IMG/VR virus record: IMGVR_UViG_3300046812_000150
Location: 1-45,941 of that record
Direction: 5' to 3' (one strand)
DNA from: a virus
Length of the DNA: 45,941 nt
The translations under genes were made by a program, and so were the position numbers. The notes below the pieces were generated by a model. That model worked only from the letters and a program-made list of their open reading frames with translations. It had not been told where the DNA came from and searched no databases. Position 1 is the stretch's first letter; each line of letters opens with the position of its first letter. Below are positions 2,595-3,557 of this stretch, in pieces.

Positions 2595-3181
2595 GCGCAC
2601 TCCGCCTTGATTAGTCGACAGCCGATGCAGGCCATGACCTGACCCACGGAAAGAGATCGGCGGTCGGGCTGGGTGGGTTCGACCCCGATGCAGCGCTCGG
2701 GCGTGAAGAGCAGGTCGGGCTCGGCCGCCTTGCGAGCGAGCCAGCGCGCAGTGGTGGGGTAGCTCACACGTTCGAGCTCTGCAGCGAGCGCGAACGTGGC
2801 CCACTCGGATGCATTGAACGTGGGCAGGCCCAGCGCCCGCGCGGAGCGATAGAAGTCAGCGCTGCTCGCGAACGCGAAGCGGATGCGCTCTGCAGCCCCG
2901 TGGACGGCCGGAAGACTCTCCGCGAGCAACAGCCACGGCGCGGGCAGATCGGGGAGCAGAAGAGCGGGGAAGCCGCTCACCTCGTGCACTGCGAGCTCCA
3001 GCGGCGCGAAGTGCTCCAGTGGGTCGAGCGAACGTGAGCTCATGCGCTCACGTTCCGCGCCGTCATCCGCCGGGACGGGGGCCGGGACTGGGGCCGGGAC
3101 TGGCGCCCGGGCAGCGACTGCGGGCGCGAATCCCGGCAGCAGAGCGCGATCTGCAGTCCACTTTCGCGACTTGCGCTTCAT
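2591..3181 (-). CDS. Hypothetical protein with APVP repeat
   Basis: 196 aa. Basic N-terminus (MKRKSRKW), then a Pro-Val-Ala linker of about 14 residues encoded by 12-bp DNA repeats containing GGGACTGG. The rest is a globular domain rich in Leu/Ala/Phe (FAFASSADFYRSARALGLPTFNASEWATFALAAELERV) with CIGC near the C-terminus. It lies beside the candidate origin and shares the origin repeat unit within its coding sequence. No family recognised; an origin-associated role is suggested only by position. Confidence 0.5.
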   Translation of the reverse strand: MKRKSRKWTADRALLPGFAPAVAARAPVPAPVPAPVPADDGAERERMSSRSLDPLEHFAPLELAVHEVSGFPALLLPDLPAPWLLLAESLPAVHGAAERIRFAFASSADFYRSARALGLPTFNASEWATFALAAELERVSYPTTARWLARKAAEPDLLFTPERCIGVEPTQPDRRSLSVGQVMACIGCRLIKAECA

Positions 3182-3557
3182 CTGGACCGCCCAACCAGTC
3201 CCACCAGTCCCAGCGCTGGCCCAGCGATGCAGCCAAAAGCTGCATCTGTTAGATAGATATAGTTAGGTTTATTCATATAGTTAGAAGAGAAAGAGAGGGA
3301 GATCGCAAATCGCTGGGACTGGTGGGACTGGTGGGACTGGTGGGTTTTGCTCTCGTGTGCGCGCGCGCGGTTGACCGTGTGCCGACACGTCACACCACCT
3401 GCATTGGCTAGATCTCCAATTCCAATTTTCATTTCTCGTATGGCGTGCATGAACCCCTGGCCCAGCAGTCCCACCAGTCCCAGCGAGGCTAACTGTATGA
3501 TTTTGGGTCGGATTCGCTGGGACTGGTGGCTTGGCCCAGCGAGAGCTCACCAGTCCC
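3084..3557. repeat. Cluster of ten GGGACTGG repeats (candidate iterons)
   Basis: Exact GGGACTGG or its complement CCAGTCCC occurs at 3084, 3096, 3195, 3204, 3315, 3324, 3333, 3474, 3519 and 3550 (first base). Plus-orientation copies form a 9-bp ladder at 3315-3341 (period GGGACTGGT); minus copies form pairs at 3195-3211 and around 3466-3481. Most groups are capped by CGCTG/CAGCG. A second word, TGGCCCAGC, adjoins three groups (3217, 3458, 3532). The cluster spans the 5' end of one gene, the intergenic gap and the 3' end of the primase-helicase gene. Confidence 0.9.
3182..3488. other. Candidate replication origin (non-coding, AT-rich core)
   Basis: This 307-bp gap is the largest in the early block. 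It holds an AT-rich tract at about 3240-3310 (TTAGATAGATATAGTTAGG and the purine-rich run after it), unusual in this GC-rich sequence. Inverted sets of the GGGACTGG repeats flank it. It lies immediately downstream of the primase-helicase gene. Iterons plus an unwinding element next to replication genes is the classic origin layout; origin function is inference. The inverted arrays could instead form long hairpins acting on transcription. Confidence 0.55.

Follow-up and report, generated by a model that had tools for sequence, protein, structure and literature searches.

A probable iteron-type replication origin at the 3' end of a phage primase-helicase gene, with iteron words that co-vary with a helicase helix among sister phages

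Introduction

SaPIbov1 Rep and SCCmec Cch are initiator helicases, and in the alpha/ori/crr system of satellite phage P4 the iteron word is accompanied by a separate crr element. The origins of PICI/SaPI elements lie immediately 3' of rep and have two iteron sets around an AT-rich region (PMC6092414). Cch2 requires direct repeats downstream, which its isolated C-terminal domain binds (PMC7581432). In geminiviruses, co-variation between iterons and Rep gives replication incompatibility (PMC2974675). In actinobacterial integrative elements the RepAM initiator is DUF3631 (PMC3218068); a search through the text of that paper gave no reference to iterons. A search of an open-access paper library yielded no TGGGAC iterons; an earlier description may exist elsewhere.

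Here we analyze a window of 45,941 nucleotides, a whole virus contig (46 kb) in which a first-pass annotation had proposed a likely replication origin within a cluster of repeats. The proposal is supported by homology of the adjacent helicase to SaPI Rep and Cch, by a PICI-type layout, and by co-variation between the repeated word and a helix of the helicase. We consider it very probable, from these sequence comparisons, that the cluster is a replication origin at which the helicase winged helix reads the iterons, the AT-rich core melts, and the variable face of the helix sets the word.

Results

The phage and its primase-helicase

Matches to terminase, head protease, major head, tail sheath, tape measure and integrase proteins indicate a tailed, probably temperate phage. 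The full structural gene set places the record with the phages rather than with the PICI class, which are satellites without a full virion gene set. The primase-helicase (Table 1) matches DUF927 with E = 9.8e-37 (Pfam) and has a Walker A motif, GDTSRGKT, in its translation, as do SF3/D5-type or MCM-like DUF927 AAA+ proteins; the HTH_56 match in its C-terminus is below the Pfam cut-off. When searched against the PDB with phmmer, it matched the SaPI protein 8tch (E = 1.5e-17) and SCCmec Cch 5dgk (E = 1e-10), and the top two Foldseek matches of its model were SaPIbov1 Rep (8tch, E = 1.7e-18) followed by Cch (5dgk, E = 1.4e-16). The proposed initiator is thus homologous to SaPI Rep by sequence and by fold. 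Neither the helicase nor the adjacent gene has a Rep_3 or RepA-family domain of the kind found at classical plasmid iteron origins, and the product of 2591-3181 has no Pfam or PHROG match. A genome search with the helicase protein as query found no relative.

The C-terminus of the helicase was modeled, with low to moderate confidence, in the order H792-799, H806-814, E826-831 and E834-842. Taken alone, this winged-helix model matched the SaPI Rep fold weakly (E = 0.1).

Several other genes of the record were noted. A PD-(D/E)XK nuclease (8295-9617, +) and a RecD2-like helicase (10604-12895, +) are encoded, as is a ParB-like N-terminal domain joined to a weak DNA-methylase match (17864-19420, +). 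A MUG113/T5orf172 (GIY-YIG-type) protein (36-1166, -) lies near the replication module. The T5orf172 nuclease Odn cleaves satellite origins at iterons (PMC8263062); the idea that the protein at 36-1166 shares the proposed DNA-reading domain of the helicase was rejected, as the two have no similarity.

The repeat array and its AT-rich core

The word GGGACTGG occurs in ten exact copies, on both strands, all of them within 3084-3557 (474 bp); the rest of the 45,941-bp record has none. The chance expectation is 0.75, and ten copies were reached in 0 of 100 shuffles. The record-wide count and the shuffles bear out the ten copies in both orientations within about 475 bp that had been reported previously. 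Scattering of the same words elsewhere, which had been named as an argument against an origin, was not seen within the phage record, the scope of this count. The perfect 9-bp ladder of three copies was also confirmed. On the other side of the AT-rich stretch from the ladder (3315-3340) lies an opposed pair (3195-3211), and more opposed copies are found at 3465-3557. The arms at 3191-3215 and 3311-3335 are 96% complementary in the window. The AT-rich tract was correctly placed between opposed sets: its GC minimum is 28% in 60 bp, compared with about 64% genome-wide, and its core lies between the two arms, as in the PICI/SaPI layout. GC skew is near zero across the whole record and is therefore uninformative on the origin.

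The array starts in the 3' coding end of the helicase gene, so that the primase-helicase indeed adjoins the repeats, then fills the intergenic region and enters the next gene. This is the region immediately 3' of the initiator gene, where origins of the PICI/SaPI type lie. The repeats do enter both flanking genes as annotated, but the Pro-Val-Ala linker that they were said to encode is present in the 2591-3181 product (APVPAPVPAPVPA) and not in the helicase, whose tail is AGTGELSLGQATSPSE. Two relatives described below, L103 and L383, lack this linker; the copies at 3069-3110 are absent in both and are therefore probably dispensable. The TGGCCCAGC words are most readily explained as decayed iteron copies, because a third relative, L005, has a TGGGACGG copy where the window has TGGCCCAGC at 3217.

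Table 1. Features of the proposed origin and its neighbors (window coordinates)
Feature	Coordinates	Strand	Basis or detail
Downstream neighbor gene	2591..3181	-	Array copies in its 5' coding end
Two GGGACTGG and one GGGACGGG within gene 2591-3181, 12-bp spacing	3069..3110	+	
Opposed iteron pair, left of AT core	3191..3215	-	Exact words at 3195, 3204
AT-rich core, proposed unwinding element	3244..3285	+	42 nt, without differences between window, L005 and L103 (alignment)
Three-copy 9-bp ladder, right of AT core	3311..3344	+	Words at 3315, 3324, 3333
Outer iteron pair	3461..3485	-	Exact copy at 3474 and one GGGACTGC copy
Primase-helicase, 868 aa, DUF3854 and DUF927, weak C-terminal HTH_56; proposed initiator	3489..6095	-	Pfam
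Iteron within helicase 3' coding end	3514..3529	+	
Iteron within helicase 3' coding end	3548..3560	-	
Predicted C-terminal winged helix, proposed iteron-binding domain	3561..3740	-	Residues about 786-845, model
Predicted recognition helix, residues 806-816 (SAVHSQLADLG); variable face 806/809/810/813/814	3648..3680	-	Four-ortholog comparison

Four sister phages with four words

The window belongs to a set of four syntenic phages. The helicases of the other three are 92% (L005), 80% (L103) and 78% (L383) identical to its own, and each phage has one 9-bp word: TGGGACTGG in the window, TGGGACGGG in L005, TGGGACCAC in L103 and TGAGACCAC in L383. The first-pass annotation had suggested scanning related phages for the same repeats beside a DUF3854/DUF927 gene. 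An array is indeed found at the same site beside such a helicase, but the word itself is replaced by others. L005 has no GGGACTGG, and the aligned places hold GGGACGGG or the matching variant; L103 has TGGGACCAC at the aligned intergenic copies, and L383 has twelve exact copies of TGAGACCAC. The words are near-uniform, not perfect, since a few copies deviate slightly: the window has one TGC, L005 has GGC and GGA copies, and some coding copies have C or A at position 1. The window, L005 and L103 share the 42-nt AT core without a difference, and that of L383 resembles it. The spacer at 3350-3460, between the ladder (ending at 3340) and the outer pair (from 3461), is nearly unchanged between the window and L005, but not so in L103 and L383.

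Between the window and L005, all 11 changeable copies differ by T to G at position 7, and the twelfth copy has G in both. Among the rest of the aligned sites, 69 of 872 differ (8%). By simple arithmetic, 11 changes at this rate have a probability of about 1e-12, even if the same base is not required. No intermediate genomes with mixed words were found among the relatives. The window and L005 have retained the sequence between copies, which makes stepwise selection of the copies after a helix change appear likelier than replacement as a block.

The corresponding recognition helices are WTSAVHSQL (window), WTKAVCDQL (L005), WTHAVQSQL (L103) and WTPAVQQQL (L383). Residues 806, 809, 810, 813 and 814 vary among the four orthologs, whereas 807, 808, 811, 812 and 815-818 are invariant. 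In the model, the variable residues form one face of the second helix, the predicted recognition helix. Only 8 columns of the helicase have four different residues across the four orthologs, and 806 and 813 are among these. Between the window and L005, 9 of the 29 residues at 804-832 are replaced (odds ratio 21 against the core at 421-803, P = 2e-7). Silent change in the helix and wing stretch is also somewhat raised (P = 0.035), and a short recombination tract is therefore possible, as opposed to residue-by-residue selection. The winged-helix model is of low confidence and the co-variation of helix and word is strong; the C-terminal domain is the proposed reader of the iterons.

Two other candidate readers were rejected. 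A second variable patch of the helicase (residues about 325-410) has two versions, one shared by the window and L383 and the other by L005 and L103, and the words differ within both pairs. The 2591-3181 product, named earlier alongside the helicase as a possible binder, barely changes while the word switches and is not a constant neighbor at other such origins; the helicase fits that role.

Distribution beyond the sister phages

The 18-mer TGGGACTGGTGGGACTGG was dropped as a lone probe, since many of its matches held the searched pair only and some were probably Gly-Thr coding repeats. Because of this ambiguity, a two-sided opposed pattern, GTCCCANNNGTCCCA-N(75-105)-TGGGACNNNTGGGAC, was used, with the same pattern carrying the reversed word as control. 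The pattern was found in 73 viral stretches, compared with 4 for the reversed word, and in 72 stretches of bacterial or archaeal genomes. At 104 of 146 loci the array coincides with the end of a helicase-type gene (49 VapE-like, 7 DUF927, 7 DUF5906 and 41 DUF3631), and after helicases more than 80% identical were dropped there remained 14 VapE-like, 6 DUF927, 5 DUF5906 and 20 DUF3631. These loci were picked by word and therefore show breadth, not frequency. Other TGGGAC arrays adjoin DUF3987 and AAA_25 proteins.

Among individual loci, an AAA_25 (RepA-like) helicase gene of a low-GC phage is followed after about 30 bp by an array of nine GGGACTGG, which has an AT-rich stretch (L028, 12923-14359; also L030 and L040). 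An HTH_36 protein in L011 (7191-7943, +) has a GGGACTGG array within its own coding sequence, giving GTGGTG and PVPKLGT peptides. In actinobacteria, loci such as L178, L216, L193 and L219 have a DUF3631 gene with a likely Prim-Pol gene before it, an integrase-like gene after it and a TGGGACGG-type array overlapping its 3' end.

The repeats could instead be the sites of a regulator, perhaps the helicase or the 2591-3181 product, that controls the downstream operon, since the array is directly upstream of gene 2591-3181 and reaches into it. A simple operator, however, would hardly have more than 10 sites, sets that face each other over an AT core, and copies in the 3' end of the upstream gene. 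From locus to locus the downstream gene varies and the class of the upstream helicase stays the same, and the word tracks the helicase helix rather than the 2591-3181 product; an operator array is thus unlikely. A partition centromere, or another maintenance or packaging site (parS-like, pac), is highly improbable. Such sites are also made of repeated words, and the phage encodes a ParB_N-domain protein, but this protein, encoded 14 kb from the array, is a fusion of ParB-like and DNA-methylase parts. Moreover, unrelated elements also have the array at the 3' end of the helicase gene, among them integrative elements of actinobacteria, where it lies beside DUF3631 (RepAM-type) genes.

A further sample of 80 VapE loci was chosen by protein and not by word. 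In 23 of these, at least four TGGGAC were found within 650 bp around the stop codon, and at least four copies of the reversed word in none. Other VapE words were TGGTGAC with helix WSRIDQMRV, GGTTGGACA with WTRADQMRV and TGGTCCGGGT with WSQADQNRV. In the 22 loci whose repeats were strong, similarity between words was correlated with the nine-residue helix when the helicase core was controlled (partial r = 0.41, permutation P = 0.0004, a value to be read loosely because the cut-off of at least six copies of the top 7-mer admits some loci that are only marginal against shuffles). With the helix controlled, the partial correlation between word and core was -0.01. Many VapE loci had no obvious iterons by the repeat test used. 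Six of them with helix RWTRGDQMRV (L307, L308, L309, L313, L316 and L318) had no repeated word near the helicase stop, and their origin may be elsewhere or lost.

These correlations bear on whether the array is an origin whose words are read by a host factor or another phage protein, the helix correlation then reflecting shared ancestry or linkage. TGGGAC does recur beside several helicase classes, and helix and array are adjacent and so recombine together. Nevertheless, the helix signal survives control for the helicase core, which itself adds nothing; the hypervariable patch at about 325-410 is common to phages with different words and does not explain the word; and a fixed host factor cannot account for four words in sister phages. 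A separate reader is accordingly very unlikely, and the helicase winged helix is preferred.

Among seven named phages checked, downstream repeats with words of their own were found in APSE-1, in Marinobacter PS3 and, more weakly, in Caulobacter Jess A; Pseudomonas phage Haddon has a weak downstream set only, and in Mano, VarioGold and BC679P2 downstream repeats are absent. In Hamiltonella phage APSE-1 (L389), the P3 helicase gene is followed, just after 2760, by a perfect 9-bp ladder of three GGTTGTTAC that is opposed to GTAACAACC copies, with an AT-rich stretch between the two.

Discussion

The preferred reading can be set out as a mechanism. The primase-helicase would bind, through its C-terminal winged helix, iterons just past its own gene and would assemble on the opposed arrays as two oppositely oriented oligomers. 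The AT-rich core between the oligomers would be melted, followed by helicase loading and priming. With a spacing of 9 bp, which is close to one helical turn, successive domains would meet the DNA from nearly the same side. The variable face of the recognition helix would decide which 9-bp word is accepted, and after a helix change every iteron copy would be reselected to the new word, so that related phages would come to have private, probably mutually incompatible, origins.

More broadly, PICI-type origins may be a general class of temperate phages and integrative elements and not a PICI hallmark. A helix-plus-word code of the winged helix would then divide them into private incompatible groups, and lineages would jump between words by concerted iteron change, perhaps escaping satellites or origin-directed nucleases. 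We hold the chances of this broader view to be about even. New here are the four-word allelic series, the correlation of helix and word, and a probable PICI-type origin outside PICIs. The sister phages are a natural allelic series with the same synteny, a similar AT core, four words and four helices, which makes it testable how an initiator and a dozen sites shift specificity together. A layout described as exclusive to phage satellites is extended to ordinary tailed phages and actinobacterial integrative elements, and a simple route is given from sequence to origin finding and to the prediction of replication compatibility.

The locus resembles SaPI/PICI (PDB 8tch) in its putative origin 3' of the initiator-helicase gene, its two iteron sets flanking an AT stretch and its homologous helicase, and in the C-terminal domain of the initiator as proposed iteron reader (PMC7581432). 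It differs in that the host element is a full-size tailed phage, the word is 9 bp (TGGGAC-NNN) and the word switches in concert among orthologs. SCCmec Cch/Cch2 with its putative origin (PDB 5dgk; PMC7581432) shares the homologous helicase, and in Cch2 downstream direct repeats are bound by the C-terminal domain; Cch2 has three 5-nt iterons (AAGTG), whereas here more than 10 9-bp copies occur on both strands and the helicase has a fused primase-like DUF3854 domain. The AICE system of RepAM/DUF3631 with Prim-Pol (PMC3218068) is similar in that actinobacterial loci have TGGGAC arrays at the DUF3631 3' end, but its ATPase is of another family. In geminivirus Rep with GGNGTCC iterons (PMC2974675), the core is conserved apart from a single base, whose changes go together with those of a single Rep residue; that protein, however, is a rolling-circle Rep of plant ssDNA viruses without homology to the helicase, and recombination swaps the whole segment. 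In the RepA_N system of V. cholerae PLE (PMC8263062), the DNA-binding domain of the initiator and the iterons also co-vary, and only cognate pairs replicate. The PLE initiator is unrelated, and the iterons there, of about 30 bp, come as two alleles that differ by a large replacement, whereas in the phages described here the switch is of one to three bases in every copy.
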